Source: Tetradesmus obliquus (taxonomy: Eukaryota > Chlorophyta > Chlorophyceae > Sphaeropleales > Scenedesmaceae). From it: a stretch of DNA of 64,000 nt. Below the pieces are notes generated by a model. The model worked only from the letters and a program-made list of their open reading frames with translations, had not been told where the DNA came from and did no database searches. Shown here one piece after another: positions 1,124 through 61,640 of this stretch. Every line of letters starts with the position of its first letter. The first letter of the stretch is position 1. The stretch spans positions 4,960,001-5,024,000 of the forward strand of contig CP126198.1 of assembly GCA_030272155.1 (NCBI GenBank). The letters run 5' to 3'. Both the position numbers and the translations under genes were made by a program.

Positions 1124-4100
1124 ATGTCCAGCATCACCGTGCTGCCTGCAGCAGCTCTGCAAGTGATTCTGGGGCACCTCTGCTCTGGCCCCAACAACAG
1201 CAGCACTGATGTAGCAAACGCACGGCTTGTCTGCAAACGGTGGGCAGACATATCGTGTGCTGCAGTCAACGCTGTCACTCCTAAGTCAGCAGCAGCGCTG
1301 GTCAACACTGTTGGCAAGTTCAAGGCACTGACGTATGTGGACCTGAGGTGCGCATCAACTGCTGGTCCTGCTGGTGCCGTGCTTGTCTTCATAGTTGCAT
1401 CTGCAGTCTGCAAGCAAAGCACTTACATCCTGCCACCGCGCACTATCGGTAACAACTGCAGTAACGTGTGATTGGGCGATAACCTAACCACTTCAGCACA
1501 CTCCGCACCTGTTACTGCACCCTTCCTGCTGGCGCTGCTTGCTTTTGTAACTACCTGCCATCACTCACACCTCTTGCACAAAACCTGGTACAAAATCTGC
1601 GCAGGTACATGCGCAGCATAGATGAGCCAGCAGCAGCCAGCCTGAGCAAGCTTCAAGGCCTGCACAGCCTAAGCCTCCCCAGCAGGTGTGCATCTGCACC
1701 TAGCCAGCCTAGTGCCTGCACAGATGCTGCCACATGTATTGTTTGGTGCCATGTATGCAGTAAGCACAGGGAAGTGCACGCCAGCAAGCAGCAACTACCA
1801 GCATGCCTTGGTGCAGCTTGTGCTGCTTCTGTTTTGCCATAACAGCAAAAGCATCATGTCATTATCCGTGCTTTCTCTCACCATGCTGACTTCACCTTGC
1901 CACCCGCTGCTGCAAACTCTTCTGCAACCCCACCACCTTCCCCCTGCAGCCCCTGCTGGGACAAGCTGCTGCTGCGTGGCGCTGTCCTGCAAGCAATAGC
2001 AACCTCCTGCGGGGCCCTGACTCGCCTGGACATCAGCACAGCCACTGATGACCTCGCGCAGCAGCTGCACCCGCTGCAGCAGCTGCGAGCGCTGTCCTTA
2101 TCCGGCCGCATCACTGACAGCGGCTTGGCGCAGCTCTCATCGCTGTCCCGGCTGCAGCAGCTCTCCCTCAGCTGCTGCGATGCCATCAGCGATACGGGGC
2201 TTGATGTCCTCACCGCACTGCCAGCGCTGCATGCGCTGTCTTTACAAAGCTGCCTGCAGCTGGGAGATGCAGCGCTGTCCCTGCTCGGGCAGATGACTCA
2301 GCTGACAGCGCTCTCACTCTCCCACAGCTGCGAGGATGCAAGCAGCGCAGGGCTGCTGAGCTTGTGCAGTTTGAAGCAGCTGCGGGTGCTGAACCTGAGT
2401 GCTGCTTCGGAGGGTGCAGCGCCTGGCGCGCTGGCGCGGCTTCTGGCAGCGCTGCCACAGGTGGGAGCAGCTGCTGCGGCCGTATGTGTCCTTGGTGGTT
2501 GCGCAGCGTCTTCGGGTTGAAACTGTGTGTGTGTTGTCGGGACGGGCTGCTGGCAGCGCTGCCGCAGGTGGGAGCAGCTGCTGCGGCTGTTGTGGTGTTG
2601 CATGGGATGCAGGCGCTTGTGCAGCCTCCTTGTTTTGTTGTGGAGCATGTGGTTGCACAACACGTGTAACAGGGAACAGTATTGCATCTGGCCTCAATTA
2701 CTACTGCTTAGGCTGTAGCTGCACGGCATCGCTGAGCAAGCCACCTTGACAGCAGCAATATGCAGCACAAGTTGCTGCACAACCTTCCTGCGCGGCCATG
2801 GCTTCACCCTCGCTTGCCATGTCTTGTGCTGGGGCCAGCATCTCACTTACCCTGCTCTGCATCCTCTGACACCTGTTTCTCATGTTGATTGCTTGCAGCT
2901 GACGGCGCTGGATGTGAGCTACTGCGAGCACGTGAATGCAGCAGTGCTGCGGGCCATAGCAGGGCTGCAGGACTTGCGGCTGCTGGGGCTCAGCGGCGCC
3001 AGCCCTGGCTCGCTGCACAGCCTGCGCTGCTTGAGGGCGCTCAGCAAGCTGCAGCAGCTGCAGATGCGCTGGTGAGGAGGCGCAGGGATGGATTTGTGTG
3101 CCATGCCAATGGAATGGCTTGCATGCTGGCGTCAAAAACGGGCCGCGGGGCGAGGCAGCTTTGTAGCCTTGCTGTTGGGTGGTGTGCTTGCAAATGGCAG
3201 CACTGCAAGCAGGCCTGCAGTTCCACTTGCTTTGTGGGCTGACTTGCAGCCTGCAACGTTGCTGCTGTGCAGGATCGGTCAACTCAAGGACAGCCATGTC
3301 AGCTTCCTGCCGCACCTGGTGTCGCTGACAGCATTGGACATCAGCTACTGCCGCAGCCTGATGATCTCTGCCTTGCGCCAATGTTGCTTTGCAGGATCGG
3401 TCAACTCAAGGACAGCCATGTCGCCTTCCTGCCGCACCTGGTGTCGCTGACAGCGCTGGACATAAGCAACTGCCGCAGCCTGAGGTTCTCTTCCTTGCAC
3501 CAATGTTCTTGCTGTGCAGGATCGGTCAACTTAAGGACAGCCATGTCGGCTTTCTGCCACACCTGGTGTCGCTGACAGCGCTGGACATCAGCTACTGCCG
3601 CAGCCTGAGCGGCAGCGGCCTGCAGCAGCTGCAGTGGCTGCCGCAGCTGCGGTCCCTCAACATGATGGCGGTTGGCAGCGATGATCTGAGCTGCCTGCGG
3701 GCGCTGCAGCAGCTGACAGGACTCACAGTGAGTGTGCTGTAGTTTTCAAAATTCTACGAACAGCATCTTACAGCTGTGGTGGTATGCAGCGTGCCCGAGG
3801 TGCTGCTGTTGGTGTGTTGAGCAGCAGCGTGTTTCTCCCTGCCATACCAGGCGGCTTAGACTGCGTGGCTGTGCCGTGCTGCTTCAACTGCGGCATGTGT
3901 GCATCTGGAAGCTGCACGACACGTCATTGCAAGCACGGTTGCTGTCTCACAGCGCCAGACTTCTATCAGACCGTGCGCGGTGCCGGTCACATGTAGCGGC
4001 TTTTCAAAAGCGCAACTGCTGCATGCTGACTTCTTCATGCACCGCACCATTGCACGCCTGTTGATGTGCGACTTGTGTGTCCCGCAGGTGTCGCTGCTGC

Positions 4101-4696
4101 CGCACTCCAGCAAGTCCTGGCAGGACATTGCGGGCCTCACGCAGCTGCAGGCGCTGGCGCTGCGGCGCTGCACCATCACAGCTGCCGGCAGGCGCGCTGC
4201 CAGCAGCAGCAGCAGCGCAACCAGCAGCGCAACAACTAGCGCTGAAGACCCGCAGGAAGCTAGCAGCAGCACTGGCACTAGTCATGCAGTGGCAGAAGCA
4301 GCACTATATGCAAGGTGCCTTGCTGCTCTGCAGCAGCTCACTGCACTCGACTGCAGCGGCAGCAGTGTGGACGCTGCTGCTGTTGCCACGCTGCAGCAGC
4401 TGCCATCCCTGCAGCATGTATGCCTCGCTCGCTGCCAGGGCATCAGTAATGCAGTGCTGGGCTCTTTGATTGGCTGTAGCAAGCTTGCAAAGCTTGACCT
4501 GCGGCTACGTGGCTCGGGCTGTAGCTGGAGCTGCAAGGGCCTGCTGCCGCTGCTACAGCAGCAGCCGGGGCTGTCTGCTGTGTATGTGAGTGAGGTGCCT
4601 GTGGGGCTGCCGCAGAGTGAGGAGGGCCGGGTGATTGCGTGCTCAAGTGAGCAGGTACCGATGCTGGTGGCAAGGGATGTGGGGCTGCAGGTGTGA
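1124..4696 (+). CDS. F-box-like/leucine-rich-repeat protein (LRR1)
   Basis: Predicted exons are 1124-1347, 1605-1685, 1950-2460, 2899-3071, 3520-3727 and 4088-4696. Phases agree and the sum is 1,806 nt (601 aa). The N-terminus (about residues 1-50) is F-box-like: LPAAALQVILGHL followed by ARLVCKRW. After it come Cys-type LRRs of the form LxxLxLxxCxxIxDxGLxxL, for example LQQLSLSCCDAISDTGLDVL in exon 3, continuing to the C-terminus with a Ser/Thr-rich insert near 4200-4280. F-box/LRR proteins usually act as substrate receptors of SCF ubiquitin ligases. That role is family knowledge here, and the F-box match is weak. Exon 5 is preceded by two diverged copies of its own 5' part (3273, 3395). All three acceptors give the same phase, but only the third copy leads to a good donor (GTGAGT at 3728). 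Confidence 0.8.
2443..2598 (+). repeat. Duplicated exon 3 end and donor of LRR1
   Basis: About 40 bp around the exon 3 donor (2443-2482) is repeated 107 bp downstream (2550-2589). Both copies carry the last codons (LLAALPQ) followed by GTGGGAGCAG, so two candidate 5' splice sites exist. Confidence 0.7.
3273..3640 (+). repeat. Three tandem copies of an LRR exon start with acceptor
   Basis: The block starting GATCGGTCAACTC and encoding IGQLKDSHV-FLPHLVSLTALDIS occurs at 3273, 3395 and 3520, at spacings of 122 and 125 bp. Each copy is preceded by a pyrimidine-rich TGCAG or TTGCAG acceptor. Only the third runs on into the rest of the LRR exon. The spacings are not multiples of three, so reading through from copy 1 breaks the frame. 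Confidence 0.85.
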
Positions 4697-7244: not shown

Positions 7245-10200
7245 TCAACTTGCAGCTTCAGCCACAGCATTGCTAGCTGCTGCCATCAGGCTCGCATTGC
7301 TGCGGATGGTCAGCGCTGCCAGCTGCAGTGCGGGGGCACACGACAGGCACTGCTGGCAGGCAGCAGCAGACGCAGATGCCAGCGCATCTGCTGCCACGGC
7401 ACTGCAGGGCGCCCACATCTTCTGCAGCAGCGCAGTGCGCCTGGCTGCTGTGCTGCCGCCGTCCGTCACGCTCCACTGCTGAGCCAGCTTCTCAAAGTCC
7501 CTGCAGGTGGAGATGAGCAATCAGCAATGCAGACAAAGTCAAGGCTCAGCATCATCGCAAAGAAACATTACTTTCCAGGGGCGCAGCTGACCCAATTAAA
7601 GATACAGCGTGATTAGATGCTCATGAGCAGGCCTGCACCACCCACCACCACAAACACATGACACACGCCTCGGCATTTTCTTGCGGGCCCCACTTACGTG
7701 GCTGAAATGGCGGCCAGGCCAGCCTCCAGCATCTCCGCCTCCTCAGCAGCAATCATCACAGGCACTACACCATGCACACTTTTGATAAACTTGACACCTT
7801 GACTACATCAAGCCTGCTCACGTGGCAGACATCGCAGCAAGTCCAGCCTCCAGCATCTCCGCCTCCTCAACAGCATTCACAACAGGCACTACGCCCCTGC
7901 ACGATACCATCAATCTGCCACCTTATTTCAAGCAAGCCTACTCACGTGGCTGACATGGCGGCCAGGCCAGCCTCCAGCATCTCCGCCTCCTCAGCAGCAA
8001 TCATCATAGGCACTACACCACATGCACGTTACATAACCTGGCACCTTACTTAAACCAAGCCTACTCACGTGGCTGACATGGCCGCAAGGCCAGCCTCCAG
8101 CATCTCTGCCTCCTCAGCCAGAATCGACAGCTGACTCAGCGCTGCAGCAGGCGTGTCCTCCTGCAGCTGGTGCAGGCACGCCAGCAGCGCAACATGCGCC
8201 TGGCACTGCGCCCGGTCAGCCCAGGGCGCTGAGTCAGCGCTGGCGCCGTGGCCCAGCACGAAGGCGGCGCGGTAGGTGCGCGGCATGGCCAGCGCGTGCC
8301 AGCTCATCAGGATCTACAGACAGGACAAGTTAAGCGGCAACAGGAGAGGACGGCATCTTCAGACGTTGATCAAGATGCCTGCGAAGTTGCACCATTTCTT
8401 GTAAAGATACCCCAACGTAGTGCTCCACTAGGCAGGCCATACACCACAGCCACAGCATTTAGGCTCGAGAGACAACTGGGTACTGCAAATTCTGGCTAGC
8501 GGCCAATGCTGAGCTTCACCTGGGCATGCAGCTCAGCCAGCGGCGTGTCATCACCCATCAGCGGCACCTTGCTGGAAGAGCTCTGCCTGCTGAGCTGCGT
8601 GCCAGGAGACCCCAGCTCGCCACTGCCAGCATTAACAGCAGCAGCTGCAGCAGCAGCAGCGCTTCCAGCTGCTGGCTGCGTGTCAGTAGCCGGATTCTTA
8701 GCAGCAGCGCCAGCGGCTGCAGCCGGGGCAGTTGCAGCAGCTGCAGCAGCTGCTGCTGCTGCCCGTGCTGCCTCCAGCTCCTCTGCCAGCTCATCAATGC
8801 GCTCCTGCAGAGAGCCAACCTGCAGGCAGGCAAGACAAAATTCAAGGCCAGTGTTTGAAAAGCACCAGTGCATGGGTCAGCTACAGCCAGCACTGCAGGG
8901 GTTATGCGCATGCGGCCAGCTTCAAGCATACTCTGCATGGAGACAAACCGTAAGAGCAACAGACAAATTGTATCCCAAGCTGCACTTTGGTGTGTGTTGA
9001 TCGTACACCAATTGCACATTTGCATGCAACATATCGCCTGGTCTGCATGCGAGGCCGCCCTGCACTAGCCCTCACCTGCTGCCGCGACTCGTCCAGGTCC
9101 CGCTTCAGTGTGGCTGAGGATGCCGCAGCAGCAGCCAGCTGTGAGTCCCGCGACTTGACAATGCCGCGCAGCTGCTGCACCTCGTCCTTCAGCTGCAGGC
9201 GTCAGCAATGCAGCACGCAAATGGGCAGGCAGGCGCATGCCAGCAAGTCAGCAATCAATCACGCGTCCAGTGTTGGGTTGATGAAAGCAGACTTTGCATG
9301 GACACAGTCCTTCCTGCGTGGCAGCCTCTTAACACCAATGCTCTGCTTGCAGGTGCAGCTGCTGAACTTCTGCTGTGCTGCGCCTCACCTTCTGCATGAG
9401 AGCCATCAGAGGCTTCAGCGAGTCACACTTGCGGCACTTGGCTGCCACGTCAGCAGCAGCAGCAGCGCCGCCAGCATCCAGCCGACCAGCAAGTATCTTC
9501 CCGCCGCCACCCTCGCTGCCGCTGCTGCAGCCGCCGCTGCTGCCGCAGCTCAAAATAGTGCTGAGCCCACTGCCCTCCTTAGCAGACACATCTCGCTTCA
9601 GCGAGGATGGCCTGCCGCTAGCAGCAGCAGCGTGCGCCTCATCCAAGGGGAACACCATGCCGCGTGCAGCTGCCGCAGCTGCTGTGACCGACATGATAGG
9701 CCCAGCAGCAGCAGTAGCGCTGGCAGCAGCCTTGCGCAGTAGCGGGATGATGCCTTGGATCTTCTCCAGTGCATCTTCCAGCTGCAGGGGGCCCTTGGCT
9801 GCCCCTCCCAGCATGCTGCTGCCAGCCCTGGTCATCAGCCCGCTGCTCATGTCAAAGCGAGTGCTGATCGTCTGGATCATGTGGCTGCTGATGTCTGGAT
9901 AGGCGGCAGCAGGCTTGGCAGTAGCACTGACGCTGAGCTGCGACAGGTGCGAGGCAGCAGCTGCAAGGTTCTGCTGCATGCCTTGCGGCTGGCTGCTGCT
10001 GCCGTCCATGCTGCCATTGGTGCTGCCGTTATTACTAGCCGCTGCAATTGTCAGCATTGTCGTGCCCGTGTGTGTGAGTGGTGCGGCAGTCTGCGCCAGC
10101 ACCTGCCGCAGGCACTCCTCAATGGCGATCAGCGTTCCAATGCAGCTCTGCAGCTGCGTGGACTGCTGCGCTGCCGCGGTGTGCAGCTGCACCATCTCCT

Positions 10201-15786: not shown

Positions 15787-15819
<33 letters not shown>

Positions 15820-15822
15820 CAG
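14641..15822. other. Divergent intergenic region, kinesin / small membrane protein
   Basis: This stretch separates the kinesin start (minus) from the small membrane protein (plus) and should contain both promoters. A 93-codon minus-strand ORF (14690-14971) ends 50 bp before the kinesin ATG. It has no recognisable domain and may be an upstream ORF in the kinesin leader or chance. A CAG run lies at 15784-15820, directly before the next start codon. Confidence 0.45.
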
Positions 15823-17856: not shown

Positions 17857-20800
17857 TCACTCTTCGTCCTCGTCATCACTCTCTGCCTCCTGCAGCCAAT
17901 CCACCACTGCTGCCACAGCCTTGCGCACAGCAGCAGCATCAGCAGCTGGCACCTCCAGCAGCTTGGCTGCATCGCTGCGGCCGTGCCAGGCCAGGATGAT
18001 GTCCTCCTCTGCCAGGTCAGCGTCATACAGCGCCTTGAGCGCCAGCACAGCCTCCGGCATCTTGGCGGGGTTGCCCACCTGAAATACAACAAAGTAACAT
18101 GACCAAAGTGATGATGAGTGGAAGAAGAGCACGAGGTGATGTCCTCCTCTGCCAGGTCAGCGACATACAGCGCCTTGCGCGCCAGCGCAGCCTCCGGCAT
18201 CTTGGCGAGGTGCCCACCAGGAGATACATGAAATGACAGTGAGGGAAAGCACAGCACATGATGATGTCATCCTGTCAGTGTCAGCCACGCCAACGCTGCG
18301 CCCCAGCCGCACCACTGGTGCCAGCATAGTCAAAGCAGAACACGTCATCGCGCGCCACGTGCGGCTGCTGCTGCTGCTGCACACAACCAGTAACCAGAAA
18401 TAACACGAAAAACCTCCACTCACCGCCAGCAGCCACTCCAGCGCCACCAGCTGCGCCAGCTGCCCAGGCGCATCATGCGCCAGCTGCCCCAGCAGCTCCG
18501 CAGCCACGCCAATGCTCGGCGCCAGCTTGGCCCCACCAGCAGCAGCAGCCGCAGCCCCGTTGCCGTTGCTCGCTGCATCCCCGTTCTCGCGCGGGCTGTC
18601 GCTCCCATCCTCTGCCTCCGCATCTGCTGCTGCTGCTGCTGCATCCCTGCCGGCAGTGAACAGCGCCGCATACAGCGCCCGCGCCTTGTTTGCCACGCCG
18701 CCCTCAACTGTGAGCTTCTTTGCCAGCCCGCCTGCTGCCACTTTGGAGATAGCCGCACGGCCGCCGCTGCCGGCTGCCCAGTCCCAGCCTGCCTCTGCCA
18801 GCAGCGCCCGCAGCGCTGACTCAGCGCCTGCTGGCTCCAGCTTCTCGCCGGCCTCCAGCGCTGCGCGCAGCGCGGCTGCCTCCTCTGCACGCTTCTTGGC
18901 CTCCTCCTCCGCCTGCGGTTTGAACAAATCAAACAGTTGAAACGTCAGATTGGAACCAACAGCCAGACATAGGTCAGCTGCCTCCTCTGCACGCTTCTTG
19001 GCCTCCTCCTCGGCCTGCAGTTTGCACCCAACAGTTGACACGTCAGATCAGAACAAATAGCCAGACACAGGTCAGCTGCCTCCTCTGCACGCTTCTTGCC
19101 CTCCTCTTTGGCCCGCGGTTTGCACGCAACAGTTGAAACGTCAAATTAGAACAAATTGCCCTCCTCCTTGGCCCGCGGTTTGCACGCAACAGTCAAATTA
19201 GAACAAATAGCCAGACACAGGTCAGCTGCCTGCTCTGCACGCTTCTTGGCCTCCTCCTCAGCCTGCGGTTTGCACCATCAAGAAATACGCATAGGTCAAT
19301 GGCCACAGCTAGGCACAAGCCGAGCAACACGTGGGTGAAAGGCAGCACGCCTGCCCGTGCATCCTGGCTTGGCATCGTCACTACAGCATGCAGTGCGTGA
19401 AGCCAGCTGCTACTGCATGCAACAAGGGAGTGTATTATGTTCAATAAACACATGCATACTGTGCCTGCATGACAGCCCACTGGAAGCATCAGGAGACTTG
19501 TACGGGGGTCTCCTGGTCCAGCACTACTTGCAGGTGCGCAACTGTGCAAGCACTGCATGCATCTGTCCTTTACAGGGATCACATGTGCACGCACCTTCTT
19601 CTTGGCCTCTGCCTTGGCCTTCTTCTTTGCCTCTGCCCGCTCAGCCTCAATGTTGCCCTGGGTCACCATGGCAGCAGTGGCTTGCGTCAGCTGCTCCGCA
19701 GCGCGCGCAGCCACAGCAGCAGCGCTGGTGTCCGTCATCCACACCACCTGCAGCAGCAGTAGCAGCAGCGGCAGCAAGGGGTCAGGTCAACTGAGCATGA
19801 TATCAACGAGCAAAAAACTGTTGGACATTGTTCACACGTCGAGCACTTGCTGCTGCTGCCGTCTACGCTGCTGCTTCTGCTTGGTGCTGCAGCTGCCGCT
19901 GGCCTCACTGCTGCTGCCACGATGCCCCACAACCACATCAGCCCCCTTTGTCCTGCTGTGAAGCTGATTGCCATGCTCCAGGCTGCCCTGCTGCTGCTGC
20001 TGGTGCTCGATGTCGCTGCTGCTCCTTTCGCTGCTCCTATCGCTCCAGTCATCTGCTGCTGCTGCCGCTGCTACGCATATCGCTGCTCCTGTCGCTGCTG
20101 CTGCTGCTACTGCTGCTGCGCACCTCATCGTCGCTCTCCTCCGCCTCCTCCTCCTCTGCTGAGCCGCCCTCCGCGCCCTCCGCTGCATCGCCGTTCTCGG
20201 CCTCCTCACCCTCGCCCTTCTTCTTCTTCTTGTCCCTGAAACAGGTGAAAACAGAACGAAAGAAGCAGCAGTGACAGCAGCTCAGGAGTGTCAGCGGAGT
20301 ACGTATTGATGCTGTGGCACGCATGCCATGTCGGTTGCCATGCATGCAGAGCCTGCCAAAGGCGTGCCACAGCTGCCCCAACGTAGCTAGCCAGCCGCTA
20401 CAGGTCATGCACAAGCAAACTGCACTGCTAATGCTGCTGTGAAAAGCGCCAATCGTCCGCTTATGCAATGCAAAATTGCTGCTACCACTGTGCGCGCATT
20501 CAGGCGGACTGCCCTGTTCCATTGCTTATCTGCTGCTGATCTGCTGCAACCGACTACTGCAGCCAGCTGCACTGCATCAGCAGCGGGCACGCTGCACCAA
20601 GCTGCAGCATTTCGCTGCATCACACATCTGCCCCGCCTGACCTGCGGCTGCTGCTGCTGCCAGCCAGCCGCACGGCTCAGTTCTTGTCCTTCTTCTTGTC
20701 CTGCCACCTGCACTGCATCAGCCCCTAGCCCACTGCACCAAGCTGCACCGCCAGTCGCAGCTGCACTGCAACTACTCACTTCTTGTCCTTCTTCTTGTCC

Positions 20801-36975: not shown

Positions 36976-39900
36976 ATGGAGGAATCCTGTTCCAACGGCC
37001 TTGACATGCTAGACGAAGACTTCATGGGCGAACTGCTGCCCTTGCTGTCAACAGAAGACATCAAGAGCGGTCGGCTGTGCTGCAAGGGATGGCATCGCTC
37101 CATACAGCACCGGATCCGCGTGTTGAGCCCTATGTCTATCGCAGATGCAGCACCAACGTGCCCCTTGAGCAGCTTGGATGTCCTGCAAGTGCACCTGCTG
37201 CAACTGCCGCCCAGCCTCCACAGCAGCCAAGCTACAGACGCAGCAGTAGATTCAAAAGCATTGACAGTAGCAGATACAGCAGTAGCAGGCACCACTCAGG
37301 CCTTCACTAGCCTGGCTCCACTACGTGGCTTGTCAGCAGCAGGACTGCAGGGCATGGCACATGCCTCAGTGGTCAACTTTGCAGGACAGCACTTGCCTTA
37401 TGATGTGCTCAAGCTGCTGAGTCAACATATGACGCGTTTGAAATCCCTGCAGCTTGACCACTGCAAGCTGCCAGCGCCTGCGCTGCTGCATGCAACTGGC
37501 CTCACCACCCTGCAGTCGCTCAGCCTTGCAGGAGTCCAGCTGCAGGGCGGACTGCACAAGCACATAAAGGAAGCAGCGCAATCAGCAGCTGCTGCAGCAT
37601 CAAGCACTGCCAGCATCGTGCGCGCAGCAGCTGCAGCAGCAGACTATGTAGAACAGGCGGGTCCATCAAGGCAGCAGGCTGCTGTTGCAGGAAAGGGTCA
37701 AACTTGGTCAAACATGTTTGCTCCCTGGGCGACAGAGCAGCAGATGCAGGAGGCATTCAGCTGGCAGCCGCAGCCCGCGCCATCTTCGCTGCTTGGTTGG
37801 AGCAGCGGCAAGTTTGCGGTGCTGTCAGCAGCGGATTGTGCGCTGCTGCTGGATGCTGTGCTGCTGCCGCAGCTGCAGCGCCTCAACCTGGACATACCTG
37901 CAAGGCCTCTGGTGAGGACCGACAGCAGTTACTTTGAATTGAGGGGAGGGGACGCATGTGACCGCTGGTTTGTGCTGGTGTGGTTTGCAGGATCGCAGGT
38001 GTGCGCTTCAAATCAGGCAAACCGCAACAGCATGAATATGTGCAGTGCACAGTAGCAGATCTACACACCACATACACCACCAAATCAACTCGCACAGCCA
38101 TGCTTTCACCTGCGCCAACATACTACGTAGTACGTTTGGCTCAAGTTGTTGTTTGGCTGCTTGCAGGACTTGCCGGCGCTGGTGCCGCTGGCAGGTCTGC
38201 CGCAGGGCCTGCAACTACGTAACACTATTGAACCAGCTCGCACCCCCACGCCTGTGTTGCTTTGACATACTTTCCTGCTTGCTTGCAGGATTTGCCGGCG
38301 CCGGTGCCGTTGGCAGGCCTGCCGCAGGGCCTGCAACTAAGCAACACCATCAATCAGCTCACACCCTCATGCCTGTGCCTGCCGCGACATACTTTCCTGA
38401 CTGCTTGCAGGACTTGCCAGCACCAGTGCCGCTGGCAGGGCTGCCGCAGGGCCTGCCGCTGCTGCAGCAGGCCTCCAAGCTGACAGCGCTGCGCCAGCTG
38501 GGCAGCTTGAGCTGCCTGAGGCAGCCGCTGCACTGGGAGGACTGGCAGGCGCTATGCAGCATCAGCACCAGATTTACGGTGGGTGCTGGTTGGCAGTTGT
38601 GGTGCGAGTTAGGCGTTAGGTTGGTGCTTGATGCTGCTGCTGCTGCTGCTGCCTGTCTACAGCTGTGTTGGGTAACAGCTGGGTTGTTGCGCTGCGCCAG
38701 CTGGGCAGCTTGAGCTGCCTGAGGCAGCCGCTGCATTGGCAGGACTGGCAGGCGCTGTGCAGCATCAGCAGCAGGCTCACGGTGAGTGCTGGCTGGCAGT
38801 GTGCTCTTGCTCAGTGCTGCTGTTGCTGCTTGTTGTTTCATACACAGCGTTGTCTTTTTGCTGCAGCTGACATTAGGCAGCCTGTCTGTGAGGCGCAGGG
38901 CACCGCAAGTGCAACGTTCTAGGCACCTACCTAGTAGTAGCCAACGTGATTGCTGCATGCGGCTGCTTGTGCACTTGCAGGAGCTTCACCTGAGCTGGAA
39001 CTGCAGCAGCGAGGGTTTTGACTCGGATGCTTTTGCGCAGCTGGGCAGCAGCTTCAGCCGGCTGCAGGTCCTCAGCCTGGACATCACTGCACTGAATTAC
39101 TACAGTCAACTCGATGAGCTTGTTACTTTGACCGGGCTGGCTGGCGGGTTGAAGGTGCTGCGGCTGTCGTTTGACCGGCCTCAGCACAGCCTGCTGCTAA
39201 GCCTGACGCAATGCAGCAAGGTGGGTTTGGCTGCAGCTCATTTCACTGCATGTACAGCATAGAATGATTACGTATGCACTGCAATAACACAGTAACAAAA
39301 TAACATAGTTCACGGGTGCAGTGTGGCAGCTGCTGTGTTGTGAAATGCTGCCATGATTGAGATGGTCCAGCCAAGCTGCTTTGTGCGCCTGGCAGGCGTT
39401 GCATGTTGCGGAGGGCCTGCTTGCTGCTGAAACTGCTTAGGGCTGCCCGAACAGAGCTGATGTGCGCTGAACTGCATAAGTCTGCTACATATATTGCGTG
39501 ACTCCAGGCTGTAACCCTGCTGCTGCTGCTGCTGCTTCTGCAGGTGACTGAGCTAGAGCTGCTTGGCCCTGTTGCTGATGAGCTGCTGGTACAGGTGGGT
39601 GGCTAGTTGCATACTTTTTCTCATATGTTATATTCACCTGTTTGTGCGTTAATAGCATGTTTCGTTACTTCGTGCATCCCTTGCTGCAGCTGCCTCTGCC
39701 ACATGGTGGCGGCGGCTGTCCGATATGCATGGCGCTCAAGCATCAAGCTGCTGCTGCTGCTGCTGCATTGCTGCTGCTGCTGCAGGTGGTGCGCAGCATG
39801 CCGCTGCTGAAGCGGCTGTCACTGGGCTCGGCACGCTCCTACAGGGCACACGACGTGAGCAGCAACAGCAGCAGCAGCATTGTTGCTAAGCTATGTATGT

Positions 39901-40711
39901 AGAATGAAGCACAGTGCAGCGACTGCACCAGCTGCCACCAATTGTCTAGTGTGCCGCTGCTCCTCAGCGCATTGCCCTCCCTGCGGTGTCCTGGATTTGA
40001 ACCGAAATGAAAACACTTCTACCACTGCACCCCGCAGCTGCTTCAACAACAGCGATGCTGCTGCTGCTGCTGCAGCAAGCGCTGCGCAAGCCCGGGGACT
40101 ACCTGCTGTCCCAGCTGGACCTGTGCTGCCCACAGCTGCGGCTGCTGCACATGCCAGGCCTTGTCATTGACGGCAGAGGCATAAAGCCGGCTGCAGGGGC
40201 GCTGCCGCGCAGCGCCGGCGCTGCTGCTGCTGCTGCTGCTGCTGCTGATGGTATTGATGGAGATGAAGTTCATTGTGAAGGAGTGTTGGGTGCTAGAGGA
40301 GGGCTGAGGAGCTTGCAAAGCGTGGAGCTGTGTGCGGCGCAGCTGATGCGGTCGACGGTGAGCACATTGTGTGCAGCACTGTTCAGTAAGGTTGGAGCAG
40401 CGCTTTGCGCCTGGGCGCAAGCATCCTGCTGACAGCTGCAACAAGAACAGCGGCGCAGCTGATGCGGTGGACGGTGAGCAAGCCATGTGCAGCAGCGCGT
40501 TGTGCCTTGGACAGTCTTGGTAACCTGTGAACTGTGTTGACATGACAGCACATGACATGAGGACGTCGCCAGCTATGTTCAACTCAGTAGGCATGAGGTG
40601 CGGCTTATCTCTATGGCTGCAGCTGCATAGAATCGCGATGCAGCAGCTGTACAGCTCAAGACCTTGCCTCATGTAGTAGGGTGTGTAACTTCTGCTGTTG
40701 CTGCTGTGCCT

Positions 40712-51178: not shown

Positions 51179-51273
<95 letters not shown>

Positions 51274-53318
51274 AGGGGCAGCAGCAGCAGGTGGCACATC
51301 TGTCATTTGTAAACAAGCAAGTGGTTGTCAGCGACCCAGGCAGCGGTACGTAAGGAGCCTTAGACGAACGTGAAGTCCTTAACAAGGATGACTAGTTTCG
51401 GCTTTTGACAGCCTCATCAGATCCTGCGTAGACCACATGCGTGTAAGGCTAGATGTAAGTGCTCACGAACGAGCAGTACAGCTGACAATGATAAGTTAGT
51501 GGGCTCCTTACGTACCGCTGCCTGGGTCGCTGACAACCACTTGCTTGTTTACAATTGTTTGGGGGCCCTGCAGCACGTGTTGTAGTTGCCTACACAAAAA
51601 ACAAATCCATTGCATCGCGCCTGATTCGCGCGCGGCACTGAAGTTTAAGTGCCTTGCATATGCTTGCTTTTATAATGCTTGCATGCTGCTTGCCATGCAT
51701 GATCACATCACATGGCAGCATCGTACTTTCACTGCCAGAGGCAGTACATGTACAGCTGGCACTGTCAGTGTCATTGTCAGCTGTACTGCTCGTTCGTGAG
51801 CACTTACATTTAGCCTTACACACATGTGGTCTACGCAGGATCTGATGAGGCTGTCAAAAGCCGAAACTAGTCATCCTTGTTAAGGACGTCACGTTCGTCT
51901 AAGGCTCCTTACGTACCGCTGCCTGGGTCGCTGACAACCACTTGCTTGTTTACAATTGGCTGTCAAAAGCCGAAACTAGTCATCCTTGTTAAGGACTTCA
52001 CGTTCGTCTAAGGCTCCTTTCGTACCGCTGCCTGGGTCGCTGACAACCATTTGCTTGTTTAAAATAGTTATATATATAACTTAGTTTGTGTGTGCACGGC
52101 GTATCATTACGGAGATATGCTTCCTGCATGCGGCACATCTGTCATCCAAAGTTTTCTGCTGCACTGCAGTCTGAGACCAGTTGAAAGTGTGCTTTCAAAT
52201 GCCTGCACGCCTGCTGCACACAGTGGCCTGCCATCCATCACAACATGCAGCGCCTGCCACACACCGCAACATCTGCCTCACTGCTGCCTGTCCGTTTGCT
52301 GGCGTGGATTATGGTGTGAAAGCTGGTTTGAATTATGTCATTTCTGTCATCTTTGCAGGCCTGATGCTCACGCACGATCGCGAGGGGACCATGCCCTGCG
52401 ACGGCCACGGCCGTGCAAAAGCCGACACAGCACCACAGCGCCTGTCAAGCCGCCATGCTGCCTGCTGCTGTCCTCCCCTGTGCCTGCGGCGTGCAATGCT
52501 GCTTACAAGCAAGCTGTGCCGCTGCCACCCCACTCAACCATCTTCCCACGAGCGTTGCTGACTGCTGCCGCGCTTGTGCTGCCCCTGCTCTCTTTCTTCC
52601 TCCTTTGCTTGTTGTGCTGCTTTCCGCATGCCTGATGCACGCGCACGAGGGCGCCACGCGGCTGCTGCCATTTGAAATGATGTTTCAAATTCTGGTTTGA
52701 ATTCTGTCATGTCCCGCAGGCCTGATGCACACGCACGAGGGCGCCACGCCCGGCGACGGCCTCTCAAAAGACGCAGTCCCCGAGAACCTGCCATGCTGCC
52801 TGCTGCTGTGTCCTTTCCTAGGTCTGCAGGCTTGCTGCTTACATGCTGGCTGTCCCACAACCACCCCACCCCACCACGTCATCAGCAACAGTGCTCCCCT
52901 CTCTTTGCTGCCCCTGCTCTCTTTCTTCCCTTCTGTACTGTCAATTCTGTCATGTCCCGCAGGCCTGATGCACACGCACGAGGGCGCCACGCCCTGCGAT
53001 GGCGACGGCCTCTCGAAAGCCGACGCAGTCCCCGACACGCCCGTAAACCTCGAAACCAATGCCTTCGCGGAGCAAGCCGGCCTGCTGCCAAAGCTTACGG
53101 GATGGTGTTCCGATTTTCGAATCGGAAAGAAGCCGCAGCCCTCGGAGCTACTGCCTTACAATAGCTGCAAGGTGCCTGGGCGGGTGGATAACATCTGGAA
53201 TGTTATGTCGTACTCGCCGGACGCATGCTGCATGATGATCACGCCGAATCAGATTGCGCGGCTGCAGTGGGCGGTGGCCAGCTTTCGGCCGCAGCTGGTG
53301 GCGGCTTACAGTGTGTAG
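44844..53318 (+). CDS. Membrane-anchored M43 (pappalysin-like) zinc metalloprotease
   Basis: Predicted exons are 44844-45354, 45713-46128, 46368-46791, 47290-47401, 47980-48425 and 52963-53318. Phases agree; 2,265 nt and 754 aa. Near residues 50-110 there is a poly-Leu run followed by a hydrophobic segment (ILALAAAGLLLFSVGIIAGF), suggesting a type II anchor. A low-complexity stalk leads into the catalytic domain (VDVTNRFFKDSGIQ onward). The zinc site HEIGHYLG-LMH is split by the last intron (phase 1 inside the Gly codon), and the Met-turn region NVMSYSPDACC with ITPNQIARL follows, as in peptidase family M43. The glutamate and all three histidines are present, so activity is likely. The last intron is 4.5 kb because of a retroelement insertion. 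Several exon edges are duplicated nearby. Confidence 0.87.
45008..45066 (+). repeat. CTG trinucleotide run encoding poly-Leu
   Basis: About 19 CTG units lie in the protease first exon and, in the frame used, encode a poly-leucine stretch just before the predicted membrane anchor. The tract could instead be the pyrimidine-rich end of an intron (acceptor GCCAG at about 45070), which would change the N-terminus. Confidence 0.7.
47088..47757 (+). repeat. Partial copies of protease exon 4 on both sides
   Basis: The 5' half of exon 4 has a diverged copy about 200 bp upstream (47088-47146). Its 3' half with donor (RFFKDSGIQ then GTGAGT) recurs at about 47586-47632 and 47719-47755. The two downstream donors are 121 bp apart; the first lies 229 bp from the used donor at 47402. 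Confidence 0.8.
48522..48872 (-). repeat. Terminal repeat A of the Penelope-like element
   Basis: This 351-bp unit begins (plus strand) TGTAAACAAGCAAGTGG. It is about 95% identical by eye to repeat B, which directly follows. It contains an intact-looking hammerhead core on the minus strand. Confidence 0.85.
48599..48639 (-). ncRNA. Hammerhead ribozyme, type I, copy A
   Basis: Minus strand: AGGAT (stem I), CTGATGA, GGCT-GTCAAA-AGCC (stem II and loop), GAA, AC-TA-GT (two-pair stem III), C17 and ATCCT (stem I return). All core positions match the hammerhead consensus. The predicted cleavage lies after GTC, between 48604 and 48603. The very short stem III matches hammerheads reported in Penelope-like elements, which often work as dimers. 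Confidence 0.85.
48873..49228 (-). repeat. Terminal repeat B, overlapping the RT stop
   Basis: This is the second direct copy. Its right end contains the last RT codons and the stop at 49186. The hammerhead core carries a G-to-A change at the catalytic G12. Confidence 0.85.
48950..48990 (-). ncRNA. Hammerhead ribozyme copy B, G12A, probably dead
   Basis: Same architecture as copy A, but the GAA after stem II is AAA (plus strand TTTTGG instead of TTTCGG). G12 is the general base of hammerhead cleavage, so activity should be lost or very low. Confidence 0.8.
49186..51306 (-). pseudogene. Penelope-like reverse transcriptase, frameshifted
   Basis: The ATG at 51306 follows the upstream repeat. 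The first segment has a poly-Gln run from 31 CAG units and an Arg/Gly/Gln-rich basic part. The reading frame then changes near 51020 (to NLSSKPLAPAALHTLNLGHK), again near 50900 (to QSDEQVARSVKLRSHFG), and again near 50510, before the long intact stretch 50394-49186 holding the catalytic core. Aspartates of motifs A and C are present. The protein ends KNKSIASRLICARH and stop, without a GIY-YIG endonuclease; the same stop follows the matching sequence in the inverted copy at 51642. The gene is therefore a broken copy of an apparently endonuclease-less type. Confidence 0.8.
51181..51273. repeat. (CTG)31 trinucleotide run
   Basis: A perfect run of 31 CTG units (CAG on the minus strand, encoding poly-Gln in the retroelement ORF). 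It is the longest pure triplet run noticed in the window. Confidence 0.95.
51308..51490 (-). repeat. Terminal repeat C, truncated, upstream of the RT ORF
   Basis: About 183 bp in the same orientation as repeats A and B. Identity stops after GACAATGA at 51490, where TAAGTTAGTGGG begins. It includes an intact hammerhead core. Confidence 0.8.
51385..51425 (-). ncRNA. Hammerhead ribozyme, type I, copy C
   Basis: Core identical to copy A. It lies in the truncated repeat just upstream of the RT ORF, so it would cut element RNA near its 5' end, between 51390 and 51389. Confidence 0.83.
51502..51955 (+). mobile_element. Inverted, 5'-truncated second element copy
   Basis: In the opposite orientation to the main element: a short piece of repeat (51502-51553), then the last ~28 codons of the RT ORF (GGPAARVVVAYTKNKSIASR, stop at 51640-51642), then a full 3' repeat (to 51953) with a hammerhead core on the plus strand. 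This is the arrangement expected of a 5'-truncated insertion next to a repeat fragment. Confidence 0.78.
51837..51877 (+). ncRNA. Hammerhead ribozyme, type I, copy D (inverted)
   Basis: Plus-strand copy with intact CTGATGA, stem II, GAA and GTC. The predicted cleavage is after 51872. It lies in sense with the protease gene, so it would be present in that gene's pre-mRNA, inside the last intron. Confidence 0.83.
51956..52064 (+). repeat. Terminal repeat fragment E
   Basis: A 108-bp partial repeat in the inverted orientation, starting inside hammerhead stem II (GGCTGTCAAAAGCC), so the CTGATGA strand is missing. It ends CTTGTTTAAAA. An AT-rich TATATATATAAC stretch follows at 52069. Confidence 0.75.
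52359..53318 (+). repeat. Four copies of the protease last-exon start
   Basis: Copies of the block encoding GLM(H)THEGATPCDG begin at 52359, 52630, 52720 and 52963 (the functional one). Copies at 52359, 52720 and 52963 follow a CAG acceptor; that at 52630 does not. The first has Leu instead of the third zinc-binding His; the 52720 copy keeps it but loses the frame further on. Intervals of 361 and 243 bp between acceptor-bearing copies are near multiples of 121. Confidence 0.82.
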
Positions 53319-54402: not shown

Positions 54403-56786
54403 ATGCCCTGTCATGCACTGCTGCTGCTGCTGCTGCTACTGCTGATGTGCCGCCGAGTTACATCGCAGCTAAATAGCAGCCAACCTGTAGACTCTCCCAA
54501 AACAGCCATTTTGAGCTCTCCAGGCAACCAGCTGCCGAGCAGCTGGGCTGCAAGCAGCAGCTGCCCTCCTGCAGGAGCGCTGCTGTCTGCTGAAGGATGC
54601 CCCTGCACCTGGCGCCCACCGCTGCCAGACCTACCACAGCAGCAGCAGCAGCAGCAGGCTCGCCGGTCAAACATAACTTTGACCGGACGCTGCCCAGCAG
54701 GGCTGCGCTGCAGCCCCTGCGCTGCTGCTGCGCTGCTGGCAGCAGGCTGGCTGCCGCAGGCTGGTTTGAAATTGAATTCAAATATGACGGCAGCAGCTGA
54801 CTGCCGTATGCTGGCTACGGAGGCCCAGGGGGTGTGCCTGCGCTGCCAGATAGGTGAGCCGGTGTTGGGTTTAAAGATTTAGGGTTGTTAAGCACTGCAA
54901 ATGGTTTGAAAGAGACCACGTGATTTGTCCACCAGTGCTGGGACCTGGCCTGCGGTTGTGTGCACCTGGTGCTGCTGTTGATAGAATACATCTTGGAACC
55001 ACAAGGATGGAGTAATGCTGAAAGACCGTTCAGTCTTTCAAATGTTCTGCTTTGCCACACTGCTGTGAGCTTGGATGGGAAATACATCTTATGTTTGCAG
55101 GAGAGTACTGTCCTGGAGGCAGCCAGGAAGAAAGCTACCCCAGCCTCCACAACTGCTCTGGTTCATCAGCAGCAGCAGCTGGCAGCAGCAGCAGCAGCAG
55201 GGCCACTGCAGCCTACCTGGGCATGGTGCCAGGGTTTGGGGACTGCAAGGGCTATAAACCCTGCCCTGAGGGCGCGCTGTGCCAAAACCCTGCCAAGCTC
55301 GCGGCGTGTGAGCCTGGGAAGTGGTGTGCTCAGGGCAGCTTCAGAAGCGAAGCCTGCAACATAACGGCAAGTGACAATGTTACTTGTTATGTTGATGTGA
55401 TTTTAAATTTGTTGGCCTGTTGTTATATGTTAATGTGTTTCTAGGACGCTGATTCCTGGCATACCAAGCTCGGGCACCAACCTCAGCGCAACTCAATGCT
55501 GCTGTGCCTGCTGCATTTTTCTTCGCTTGCAGAACCTGCTGCCCTGCAGCGCATTCTGGCTGGTGCTGCCAGACCAACTGCTGCTGCTGCTGCCGCTGCA
55601 GAACTTGCTGTCCTGGAACACGTTTCGGCTGGTGCGGCCCGACCCGCTCCTGCTGCTGCAGAGCCTGGCCATGTCTGGGCAGCCGCTAAGTTGCAACACC
55701 TGCCCAGCCCAGCAACAACCATTGCTCATTTCAGACAATGCTGCTGCTGCTGCTGCTGCCACAGAACTTGCTGTCCTGGAACACGTTCCGGCTGGTGCGG
55801 CCAGACCCGCTGCTGCTGCTGCAGAGCCTAGCCATGTCAGGTCAGCCCCTGGATGGCAATGCCTGCCCAGCCAACTCAACCACACCCCTGCAGGGCTGCG
55901 CGGCCGGATACTTTTGTGAGTCGCCCGGCAGGCGGCAGCTGTGCCCGGAGAACCACTACTGCCCCAGTGAGCGATAGGAGGATGCAAGCCTCTGCTGTTG
56001 TGAGACCTGTGGTTGTTGCAGATATGTTGCAACACACATGTACGCAGCTGCTGCGGAAAGTGTGCTGTGATTGCCGAGTTGGAAAGCTGATGTTTCTTTG
56101 CACTTCAAATGGGTTCGGCAGCCATGCGGCCGGCTTCTTCTGTAAATCGCCCGGCAGACGGCAGCTCTGCCCCGAAAACCACTACTGCCCCAGTGAGCGC
56201 GATATGGGAAATTGTCAAAATGTGTTAAGTGGCGGTGTTGCAGATGTGTTGTAGCAAGCATGTGCGCAGCCCTTGTAGACAAAGTGTGCTGCTGCTTCTG
56301 CCTGGGCAGCTGTTAGATGGCAATGCGGGGCCAACCAACTTCAGCGCACCTGCTGCTGCATTTCCACCTGCACGCATGCTCGCCTGCAACAGGCAGCAGC
56401 CAACAGCCGGCAACAGCCAGCAGCCCCCACGCATCAACCCTGCCACCCCAACACTGCTGCTGTTACTTTGCCTGCTACCCTGCTCATCATCATCATCATG
56501 TTACCCATCAAGCCATAGCACCAATGCCGCTACCCTGCTCAATTGCAGGCAACAGCCGCCAGCCGCTGCGCTGCCGCCCGCTGGGCAACTGCCAAGGCAG
56601 GGGCCTGGCAGCCCCAGGATGGACCTGGCAGGCCCTGCTGCTGATGCTGCTGCTGCTGGCGCTGGTGCTGGCACTGCTAGAATGGGTCCGAGTAGCTGGC
56701 AGGCGCAACATTGTCATCAGCAGCAATGAAGAGGAGGTCAATGAGCTGATTGTGGCAATCCAGCTGGTTCAAAAGGTACAGGAGCT

Positions 56787-56825
<39 letters not shown>

Positions 56826-57352: not shown

Positions 57353-57387
<35 letters not shown>

Positions 57388-57865: not shown

Positions 57866-57906
<41 letters not shown>

Positions 57907-58910
57907 GGCGTTGGGGACAGTGCCTCCGCTAGCAACAGCAGCAGCAGGGGCAGCACATTACAGCGCATGCTGGAAAGCTTGGTGGGAGCTGGCGGCATGT
58001 ACTGTGAAGCTGACGATGAAGTTCTGGCTGAGGCGAGGGAGGCTGGTGTGAAGTTCATAGTGCCAGGTGAGCCAGGGAGGCTGGTGTGAAGCTGTCGATG
58101 AAGTTCTGGCTGAGGCGAGGGAGGCTGGTGTGAAGTTCATAGTGCCAGGTGAGCCAGGGAGGCTGGTGTGTCTTCACTAACTCATGGCCATGCCAGCATG
58201 CAGCTCATTCCAGTTCATGGTGTTTCAAGCAATTCCGGCCTGTCTTTATGACTGCTAATTATCTGCTGAAGCCTGCTGCTGCTGCTGCTGCCGCTTGTGC
58301 AGGTGTGTCTGGCCGCTTCGCCCACTCGCAGCTGCATGCCATCATGGGCCCCTCAGGCTGTGGCAAAACCACACTCTGCAAAGCCCTAGCAGGCAGGCTG
58401 CCCAGCAGCAGGGTTTTGGGCAGCATCAAAGTGCTGCGGTCAGAAGCAGAGGCCGACAGTCCGGCAGCAGCAGCAGCAGCAGCAGGTGCTGTTGCCGAGG
58501 ACGGCCTGCTGAGCATCAGCCGGCTGACAGGCTTTGTGCCGCAGTTTGACCTGCTGCATGAGAGCCTCACGGTGAGCGGACACAACGCAATAAACTGTAA
58601 CTCATGCTGTGACCAATTGTATAACATGTGACTCTGTTTTCAGTGATGTAAGACAGTTGATAATTGCATGTGTTTAACCTGCTACATGAAATCCTCACGT
58701 TGGGAAGATACTGTTTTGTTTGTTGTCATTGACATAACTCGCAGATGACTGACATATCTGTGACCTTATGCTGCATGAGAGGCTCCCACACAGCAAGCAT
58801 AACGGAGGCAACCTAAGCTTGTCAATGCACGTGCAGGCAAACCTTGAGATCACTGCGCATCTGCGCATAGGCAGATATCTGCTTCTGCTACAAGCCGCCA
58901 CCGTTGCTGA

Positions 58911-58951
<41 letters not shown>

Positions 58952-61640
58952 AGGTGCAGGAGAACCTGGAGATCGCTGCGCGCCTGCGGATGCCTATTGG
59001 GCGTGATGCTGCAGGGCGGCGGCTGGCTCGCTGGCGTGATGTGCAGGAAACTGTGGAAGTGGTCATGTCACTCATGGACCTGGTCACAGTGGGGCAGCAG
59101 GTGCGGCTTTGGATGCACATGCACAGCCTGCACATGCACAGCCTGAAGGCCTTCACCACCACCCCGCATGCAGATGCCTGTCCCTGCTTTGCGCGTGCAG
59201 GTGGTGGGCTCATCCGCATCCCTTAAGCTGTTTGAATGGCAGCGCAAGCGCACCGCTATAGGCGTGGAGCTGGTGGCCAAGCCCTGCCTGCTGCTGCCTG
59301 CCCTCATCTTTGCGCATGCTTGTGCTTGGCTTGTCAGCTGCTCATACGCTGTCCGGCTGCCAGAGCAAGCACGCCCACTGCAGCACCAAATTAAACACAA
59401 TCCGCATGAATTCCTCATATGGATGTAACTGCCTTGCTTTGCAGGTGGTGGGGTCATCAGCGTCCCGCAAGCTGTCCGGCGGCCAGCGCAAGCGCGCCGC
59501 GATTGGGGTTGAGCTGGTGGCCAAGCCCTGCCTGCTGCTGCTGGACGAGCCCACGTCTGGATTAGATGCTGCCGTGGCAGCCAAGGTGGTGGAGGCGCTG
59601 CAGCACAGCAGCGCGAGGGGCATGAACGTGCTTGCCGTGATGCACCAGCCGAGGTAAGTGGCAAGATCTGGCAGATACAGCAACAGTGCTTTGGGATGCA
59701 GGTTTTGGTTCTGGGGTTGAGTGATTGGCCTAGAGCTGGTGGCCAAGCCCTGCCTCCTGCTGCTGCTGCTGGACGAGCACACATCCGGGCTGAATGCTGC
59801 TGTGTCGAGTAAAGTGGTCGAGGCGCTGCAGCACAGCAGCGCGAGGGGCATGAACGTGCTTGCCGTGATGCACCAGCCGAGGTGGGCGGGGTTTAGGCAG
59901 CCAGGGTGGCAGGGTTTTGTGTGTGGGTTGGTTGGGGTTTAGGGCGTGTGGTGCAGGTTGCGGCGGCTGGGGTGGTGGAGGCGCTGCAGCACAGCTGTGT
60001 GAGGGGCATGAACGTGCTGGCCGTGATGCATCAGCCAAGATAAGTTGCAAGATCTGGCAGCCCGGCAGGCTTGCTGACAGACGGCAACACTGCTTTGGGA
60101 CGTAGGGTTGTGTGTTTTGTGTTTTGGTGTTGAGTGATTGGTGTTGAGCTGGTGGCCAAGCCCTGCCTGCTGCTGCTGCTGGACGAGCCCACATCAGGCC
60201 TGGATGCTGCTGTTGCAAGCAAGGTGGTGGAGGCGCTGCAGCACTCCAGTGCAAGGGGCATGAATGTGCTTGCCGTGATGCACCAACCCAGGTGCACGGG
60301 GTTTTCGCAGCCGTGGTGGCAGGGCTTTACATTACATTACATTACATTACATTACATGCTCCACTCAACGAGGAGTGGGCACCCCAGTCAGGAGCTGAAA
60401 ATTTGGGGTGGCTGAAAATCTGGGGTTCCAGGACTGGCAGCTGGGGTGGTGGAGGCATTGCAGCACAGCAGCGCAAGAGGCATGAATGTGCTTGCCGTGA
60501 TGCACCAACCCAGGTGACGGGGGTTAGGCAGCCGGGGTGGCAGGGTTTAGGGTGATTTGCGGTTCAAGGTGTCGGATGCAGGGTTTGGTGGGTGATGTGG
60601 TGGCGGCGCTGCTCTTAAAATTGTCACAAATACATATATACCAACACTGCTTGCTTTTCTGCAATCGCAGAGTATCCACATCCCGCATGTCCAACAGCTG
60701 CATGCAGCCAATGAATTCGCAACATTCAATTGCTCAACCTGTGTACTATAACGCTGTGTGCTGCGACTGCCTGAAGGGTGTCCATCTTCCGCTTGTCCAA
60801 CAGCTGCCTGCTGCCAGTGAACGGATTTGACCTGTCAAAGCCTTTGAATGCTCAGTTATAACACAGTGCTTACTGTTTCTTCTGTCTGCAGGGTGTCCAT
60901 CTTCCGCATGTTCAACAGCTGCCTGCTGCTGAGCAACAGCGGCCGTGTTGTTTATGACGGCCCGCAGCAGCTGGTGCTGGCATACATGGAGTCCCTGAGC
61001 TTTGCCTGCCCTGAGGGAGAGAATGTGGCCGACTTCCTCCTTGATGTGACGGCAGGTGAGACTGATTGTGGTGCTATGTTATAACAGACAAGGTAACTTG
61101 GCGTGACAGCAGCTGGTGCTGGCATACATAGAGTCTTCGGATTTCGCTTGCCCTGGGGGGGGGAGAATGTGGCTGACTTCCTGTTGGACGTGACGGCAGG
61201 TGAGAGACGTTTAGAGTGATGTCACGGCATGTGAGAGAGTGGAACGAGGGCAGCTGGTGCTGGCCTACATGGAGTCCCTGAGCTTTGCCTGCCCTGAGGG
61301 AGAGAATGTGGCCGACTTTCTTCTTGATATGAAGGCAGGTGAGACTGATTGTGGTATTTGAGGAAGGCGGCAAGGGAGAGAAAGTGTGGTGTATGCGCTG
61401 CGGCTGGCGTTGTTAACTGCAACCAGATTTTGATTACTGCTGCCATAATCCATGACAGCAACAAGTGTATCAGAGCACTGCCTGTGGATAGTAACCTCTA
61501 ACGTCAAAAGACATGCTCTGCATTGTGTTTGCAGGCACTGTCAGCTGCCGCGGCAACCCAGACTTTGTTCCCTCACTGCTGCCAGAGTGGTGGCAGAGCA
61601 CAGGCAGGGCCTGGGTGCAGCAGCAGCAGCAGCAGACACT

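Follow-up and report, generated by a model that had tools for sequence, protein, structure and literature searches.

Decaying copies of exon edges in the introns of Tetradesmus obliquus and their probable origin in short local duplications

Analysis of a 64,000-nucleotide stretch of the green alga Tetradesmus obliquus (positions 4,960,001 to 5,024,000 of CP126198.1, contig 8, 5,918,163 bp, of a genome of 104.66 Mb in 17 contigs; hereafter the window), together with a sample of the whole genome, showed that a decaying copy of roughly every eighth exon edge, usually with its splice site, lies in the adjacent intron, most often some 90–150 bp away. Such copies, here called echoes, had been described in an initial annotation of the window at the split genes labelled LRR1, kinesin, eIF5, LRR2, M43 protease-like and ABCG. 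They proved to be real, genome-wide and above chance, whereas several of the spacings given for them and their sharp period did not hold up, and many pairs were not head-to-tail. The best explanation, to which we assign a probability of about 0.6, is that short local duplications are frequent and are kept at junctions through splicing.

The genome sample consisted of 25 ten-kb loci (20 at fixed positions and five random), one of which was N throughout and was excluded from all counts; the 24 used amounted to 240 kb, and to 304 kb with the window. Gene models were obtained with a small self-trained gene finder, which predicted 59 genes and 305 introns over the 304 kb, with the splice consensus CAG/GTGAG at donors and TGCAG/G at acceptors and a median intron of 292 for the 161 introns flanked by well-scoring exons. 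The gene finder missed the M43 gene and a mitochondrial carrier and called eIF5 and kinesin echoes exons, and every count built on its models carries such errors. The missed carrier (L004:1160; Pfam Mito_carr, E 7.3e-17) itself has three copies of an exon start, which read NVIMCNIQTNPAIT, DVAKCNIQTDPAKY and DVVKCNIQTDPAKYKGISSGF. Out of 610 predicted edges (two per intron), 508 were scanned, 398 in the loci and 110 in the window, namely those whose exon measured 40 nt or more and whose intron 120 nt or more, provided that the locus left enough room at its end. For each edge, a stretch of exon beside the junction, 60 nt at most, was searched for in the adjacent intron at a score of at least 44, and low-complexity pairs were filtered out.

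Echoes were found in the edge's own intron at 67 of the 508 edges (52/398 in the sample loci alone), vs. 0.17 per set in the introns of other genes and a single echo, at the same threshold, when the edge's intron was reverse-complemented. They occurred on both the donor and the acceptor sides of junctions, and in 59 of 75 cases the best echo reached the junction, as placed by the gene models, within 2–3 nt. Echo frequency decreased with distance from the junction, from 73/499 at 0–40 nt to 40/458 at 30–70 nt, 16/395 at 60–100 nt and 0–1.4% thereafter; the signal was thus lost within about 90 nt, as expected if units of about 125 bp cross the junction. Successive copies lay 80–159 bp apart in 79 of 116 steps, most often 120–139 bp (35/116). 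An age gradient with the youngest echo nearest the exon was not seen (13 vs. 9, with 4 ties). Introns with an echo had a median length of 400.5 bp (n = 70) and those without one of 274 bp (n = 207; p = 2e-6), a comparison in which longer introns also give echoes more room. This agrees with the earlier proposal that duplication places extra splice sites beside the real ones and goes with longer introns.

Tandem arrays in the 240 kb gave a matching picture. In the main count (lax settings, score at least 200), 30 of 46 arrays had a period of 90–160, compared to 0.25 on average when the sample was shuffled eight times under an order-4 Markov model, and the 10-bp bins from 90 to 159 held 4, 3, 6, 5, 9, 1 and 2 arrays; at score 130, 15 further arrays of period 30–69 appeared vs. 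about 2 in shuffles. This excess over the shuffles supports the proposal that duplication acts genome-wide and favours certain unit lengths. The sharp period of 121–127 bp that had been proposed gave way to a broad band of 90–150 bp with its mode at about 120–139, the excess in this band being that of the 24 loci taken together. Within the 90–160 band no array was purely exonic (0/30; 3.2 expected, p 0.03), 20 had a predicted junction inside, 4 were intronic (4.2 expected) and 6 intergenic (7.2 expected). Stricter settings yielded three exon-only arrays with periods of 57, 72 and 78, all divisible by three, and the periods of junction arrays left remainders 0/1/2 on division by three in 6/8/11 cases; these small numbers from few arrays suggest that exonic arrays keep the reading frame. 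The density of splice motifs in the arrays showed no significant excess in the 90–160 band, acceptor motifs being too common to be informative.

The state of the copies indicated which of them is under constraint. Over 66 pairs, mismatches at codon positions 1/2/3 numbered 56/61/226 of about 1257 each (4.4/4.9/18.0%), compared to 20/265 (7.5%) in the splice signal and 124/1007 (12.3%) in the aligned intron part, the last figure being biased low because alignments end where similarity ends. The impression that the splice signal survives while the coding part decays was therefore weak. At 23 edges with three copies, changes unique to the functional copy numbered 4/2/27 at the three codon positions, vs. 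11/15/26 for the best-scoring echo and 18/19/37 for the next echo, so that the functional copy is constrained and echoes take changes at all positions. Among multi-echo arrays, 12 of 23 had homologous spacers, whose identity (0.882) did not differ from that between echoes (0.888; p = 0.56). Echoes thus diverge like the spacers between them and look like neutral debris of one age.

Echoes could instead be in use, selection maintaining them as cassette exons or alternative splice sites, which we consider very unlikely. Consistent with use are the third-position bias of the pairwise mismatches, the presence of only 2 stops in 1202 echo codons, and splice sites that are often still good, with a score of at least 4 in 86% of 28 echo donors and 52% of 29 echo acceptors. 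The kinesin copy at 7822–7896 forms a 75-nt in-phase open exon in the gene model, and the eIF5 unit at 18916–19018 (102 nt) reads through in frame without a stop, so that splicing to the upstream acceptor would lengthen the protein by 34 residues. However, the third-position bias is largely due to the functional copy, indels in the exon part of echoes break the frame in 15 of 16 cases, and echo offsets are random modulo 3 (20/26/20). Splice sites on the opposite side were by median no better than at control positions: for donor-side echoes (n = 28) the best acceptor had a median of 0.28 vs. 1.21 at random intron positions, with an acceptor above score 5 in 18% vs. 11% of control positions, and acceptor-side echoes (n = 29) had no better donor than controls. 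A general role as cassette exons was accordingly rejected, single exceptions with their own sites on both sides, such as kinesin 7822–7896, being possible.

Annotated proteins pointed in the same direction. In the annotated kinesin P0121 the functional copy is joined straight to DFEKLAQQW, all three echoes being skipped, and annotated eIF5 P0002 (hypothetical protein OEZ86_014627) carries the peptide of the first array once and that of the last exon once; as far as annotated gene models show, both proteins skip the echoes. Taken with the spacer-like divergence, the frame-breaking indels and the opposite-side sites, this gives no support to alternative exons as a general outcome of the process, as they had been envisaged. 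The last-exon peptide of eIF5 also occurs once each in the relatives P0003 and P0004 and three times, at steps of 44 and 47 residues, in the T. obliquus record P0001, which probably reads intron as exon. At this exon the window carries a functional copy and a single decayed echo, vs. the three copies of P0001, and these protein records suggest that the eIF5 copy number may differ within T. obliquus. In a GTPase record whose name looks transcript-derived, P0124 (80% identical), two exon starts occur once each that the L018 model has in repeated form.

The geometry of the pairs was more varied than a simple tandem. While arrays and direct copies are present as first described, many pairs are not head-to-tail: at an identity of at least 0.9, only 25% of 32 pairs filled their offset, and the median ratio of copy to offset was 0.65. 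A common layout (12 examples) is an exon edge with a few to tens of intron bases, an unrelated stretch, and the edge again. In the 36 of 66 pairs listed as spaced (identity at least 0.85, copy below 0.93 of the offset, junction inside), the unrelated stretch measured 21–216 bp (median 58.5), and the copied intron part had a median of 18.5 nt and the exon part of 54.5. By inspection of base composition (16 and 20 pairs), spacers were T-rich and the flanks outside the echoes nearer to normal intron flanks.

Near-identical exon edges with unrelated intron flanks, seen in many pairs, would also be expected if the tandem duplications were old and gene conversion kept the exon part alike while the intron parts drifted past recognition. 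Residual similarity between spacer and intron flank, significant over the 36 pairs (z 3.2 and 3.9), a figure that includes arrays with an intermediate copy, points the same way, and in the 24 pairs with an offset of at most 185 it was clear in three to four. However, homologous spacers match echoes in identity, so that there is no exon-specific maintenance there, and we regard this explanation as unlikely. In those 24 pairs the reading of the spacer as a decayed intron flank was not significant (t 1.35 and 1.62; 3 and 4 pairs above z 2) and was rejected. No excess was found for the spacer as a copy of the exon side, either in the 36 pairs or in the 24 with an offset of at most 185, and an origin elsewhere was rejected for the two of 36 spacers searched genome-wide, each of which matched only its own place. 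A fixed sum of copy and spacer length is not claimed (p = 0.0016 untruncated, 0.09 with truncation). The simplest reading of the spaced pairs is that the segment was duplicated in place and spacer DNA was inserted, as in staggered-break fill-in repair.

Like those two spacers, the junction arrays of LRR1, kinesin, LRR2 and eIF5 each matched only their own place in the 104.66 Mb (for eIF5, bases 18875–19270). Within the 304 kb, 38 of 45 array consensuses had no off-array hit. Hits outside the own array for the other 7 are what a dispersed transposable element with splice-like sequence could claim; they include two repeat pairs (L025; window 48522–49226 with 51307–52065), and three hits (L012, L013 and L006) were taken for local or low-complexity matches at the same locus or another. 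Given the single-locus junction arrays and spacers, a dispersed repeat is refuted for the arrays tested and hardly credible as a general source. Of the two outcomes that the initial annotation had named as contrary to its proposal, a missing length excess and an origin in one dispersed transposable element, neither was seen when checked: there is an excess at 90–150 bp, and the four junction arrays are single-locus. Both stretches of the window pair carry a common repeat with 351-bp and 109-bp units, 96–98% identical, apparently a transposon-like or satellite element and unlike the single-locus junction arrays.

In the preferred explanation, DNA breakage or replication error rather than a mobile element would frequently produce short local duplications, the insert (copied segment plus any spacer) being typically 90–150 bp. 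A duplication inside a coding exon would mostly be removed by selection unless it kept the frame. One straddling an exon–intron junction would be nearly invisible, because the copy that remains attached to the body of the exon would be spliced as before and splicing would remove the other; the latter, including its second splice site, would become intron and decay. Repeated rounds would give arrays and longer introns. A likely form would be the repair of staggered breaks in which the two overhangs are both filled in, often with a spacer between the copies, and later expansions would copy the whole unit.

Several observations weigh against this explanation. Random 60-mers had a neighbouring copy in 84/1930 cases in intergenic DNA (4.4%), 185/1946 in introns (9.5%) and 104/1953 in exons (5.3%), vs. 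52/398 (13.1%) for edges in the same comparison; local duplication is therefore general and edges are richest in it, whereas under a pure sieve duplications should be no less numerous in intergenic DNA than at junctions. Slower decay of half-constrained pairs and missed genes in the intergenic class reduce this gap without demonstrably closing it. The enrichment of arrays at junctions was weak as counted (20 vs. 15.5 expected, p = 0.054), under stricter settings (18 vs. 15.7, p = 0.25) and with an ungapped pair finder that was too strict for CAG-rich sequence (6 vs. 4.1, p = 0.19). Of the ten arrays classed as intronic or intergenic, four or more have by eye, in an unblinded inspection, the appearance of junction arrays whose exons were missed or misplaced, so that the count of 20 may be too low. 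The frame rule is broken by one exonic pair, in L024 with an offset of 235. Changes in echoes keep a third-position excess of about 2, which we cannot fully explain; it may reflect biased mutation, a history in common with the functional copy, or echoes being used now and then. Finally, spacers were not recognisably related in 11 of 23 multi-echo arrays (judged against a score-based null, two of the 11 falling just below threshold) although the echoes were 0.871 identical, which does not fit plain slippage or unequal exchange.

These figures also bear on whether duplication is targeted to junctions, for instance by co-transcriptional nicking, R-loops, nucleosome edges or microhomology of splice motifs. 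Targeting would account for the roughly threefold richness of edges over intergenic 60-mers, for the splice site in most echoes and the close approach of the best echoes to the junction, and for the short intron part of the spaced pairs. In-place duplication followed by splicing, however, already needs a junction inside the copied segment; intron 60-mers are little below edges, the intergenic class is impure because the gene finder misses genes, and array enrichment at junctions is not significant. Since intergenic DNA is nonetheless poorer than edges, with annotation impurity and slower decay pushing the figures the same way, we give targeting a small share of belief. The same doubtful standing applies to its fullest version, a duplication engine linked to splice junctions and tied to transcription or splicing, which would repeatedly copy the edge and its splice site about 125 bp into the intron, often with a new spacer, as a main route of intron growth.

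The arrays of the window were delimited with Tandem Repeats Finder (TRF), motif searches and high-scoring segment pairs (HSPs) and are listed in Table 1.

Table 1. Exon-edge copies in the window (window positions).
Feature	Positions	Strand	Basis
LRR1 exon end with donor (exon end 2460), echo 107 bp downstream	2451..2582	+	motif search; predicted exon 1950-2460
LRR1 exon start with acceptor, three copies	3254..3609	+	TRF period 122; motif spacings 122/125; alignment
Kinesin exon end with donor, three intron echoes	7689..8125	-	TRF; alignment; motif spacings 123/124/124
eIF5 last exon start (exon 17857-18078), one echo	17997..18228	-	91% HSP, offset 140
eIF5 exon start and its acceptor, motif hit five times	18875..19276	-	spacings 90/60/98/102
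LRR2 acceptor with exon start, three copies	38154..38456	+	TRF period 122; motif spacings 122/122
LRR2 donor-side copies, 203 bp spacing	38555..38796	+	motif search; second copy 6 mismatches/39
LRR2 donor-side echo, 116 bp from functional donor 40357	40337..40480	+	pair alignment; motif search
M43 protease-like gene, four acceptor-side copies	52355..52992	+	spacings 271/90/243; reading frames
ABCG functional donor 55966 with donor-side echo at 226 bp	55900..56291	+	HSP; motif search
ABCG donor-spanning head-to-tail duplication, period 82, 98% identical	58003..58170	+	TRF
ABCG acceptor-side copies, 244 bp spacing	59171..59541	+	HSP; motif search
ABCG donor-side copies, spacings 228/158/252/222	59501..60548	+	HSP; motif search
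ABCG acceptor-side copies, spacings 106/115, functional edge 60892	60667..60929	+	gene model; HSP; motif search
ABCG donor-side copies, offsets 142 and 283 from functional donor 61055	60965..61380	+	TRF period 141; HSPs

The functional copy is the last in the LRR1 acceptor array (edges 3273, 3395 and 3520; predicted exon 3520–3727), lies in exon 8313–8069 (-) in kinesin and starts at 38411 in LRR2 (predicted exon 38411–38578). One of the five motif hits in the first eIF5 array has 8 mismatches in 27, and the echo of the last eIF5 exon lies 139–140 bp upstream, in the intron. Copies in the M43 protease-like gene, a label taken over as such from the initial annotation, start at 52355 (8 mismatches in 34), 52626, 52716 and 52959. 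The spacings that had been counted by eye were exact by motif search for LRR1, kinesin and LRR2. For M43, 361 (271 + 90) and 243 were recovered and 121 was not; the 127 and 123 given for ABCG were not found and the 108 and 138 given for eIF5 could not be reproduced, both genes having arrays at other spacings. Echoes at the LRR1 donor, at both LRR2 donors and at the last eIF5 exon were additional to those first described.

Some observations in the sample concern individual arrays. The gene finder placed an intron in every array copy at L008 5411–6015 and L012 6553–7200, which may be new introns of duplication origin or else artefacts; in L012 and L018 some introns of the gene models are one repeat unit long, and these models include zero-length exons, a gene-finder artefact. 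At L023 4606–4953 an array repeats the exon end DVDEVAQHFARCGIIKLDDAGQPRIKLYR followed by GCGAGT, which suggests a GC donor repeated three times; the gene may be Tat-SF1-like, and Pfam gave no match. Locus L025 carries a 312-bp satellite-like array in two blocks (1–988 and 2980–4444), 89–99% identical.

The basic type of event has already been published as a single case: one tandem genomic duplication across an intron–exon boundary of the potato RdRp gene created a new intron via a cryptic donor (PMC4974935). There the duplicated segment comprises the last part of an intron (its 3' end) and the beginning of the exon that follows, together with the splice signals; in T. obliquus, too, the boundary lies inside the duplicated segment. 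Unlike that single case, the event recurs in T. obliquus (67/508 edges; 59/75 best echoes), on donor and acceptor sides and within a 90–150 bp band, and according to the gene models the echoes mostly lengthen an existing intron. Intron gain at AGGT (Rogers) likewise yields extra splice sites by tandem duplication with the protein unchanged; there, however, an exonic AGGT is duplicated, one copy serving as donor and the next as acceptor, whereas each echo is a repeat of a single site that is already there.

Small tandem duplications in the repair of breaks with complementary overhangs, involving Pol alpha-primase and CST (PMC8355091), are similar in that fill-in at the break ends would give short direct local copies in place, and T. 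obliquus echoes are direct and local (67 direct vs. 1 inverted). The introduction of that paper refers to insertions of <100 bp, compared to long unrelated spacers and a mode of 120–139 bp here. Introners (PMC9860276) also change eukaryotic intron content on a large scale but are copied to many genes, whereas the four arrays and two spacers searched genome-wide here had no homologous copies at other loci. Tandem exon duplication concerns whole exons with both splice sites. It shares with the echoes the repetition of exon sequence with splice sites, but echoes comprise one edge only and by median have no better opposite-side site than control positions. Among the matches listed from open-access titles and abstracts, subscription literature being outside the scope, no report of exon-edge echoes in Scenedesmaceae was found, and the nearest case among them was the potato RdRp duplication.

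For annotation, the echoes are a warning that gene finders can call them exons, as in our own gene models and probably in P0001. In Table 1 of PMC5966456, T. obliquus UTEX393 has a mean intron of 462 bp, vs. 230–302 in four other algae, and the accompanying text ascribes the larger T. obliquus genome to non-coding DNA. Echo-forming duplication is a concrete candidate cause of these long introns and, if the junction-linked engine were true, it would be a main way in which T. obliquus introns grew. Few events that lengthen introns or give rise to extra splice sites have been observed; simple extrapolation from the 240 kb would give about 13,000 arrays genome-wide, and a single genome seems to hold thousands of such events at graded divergence, some of them nearly identical.

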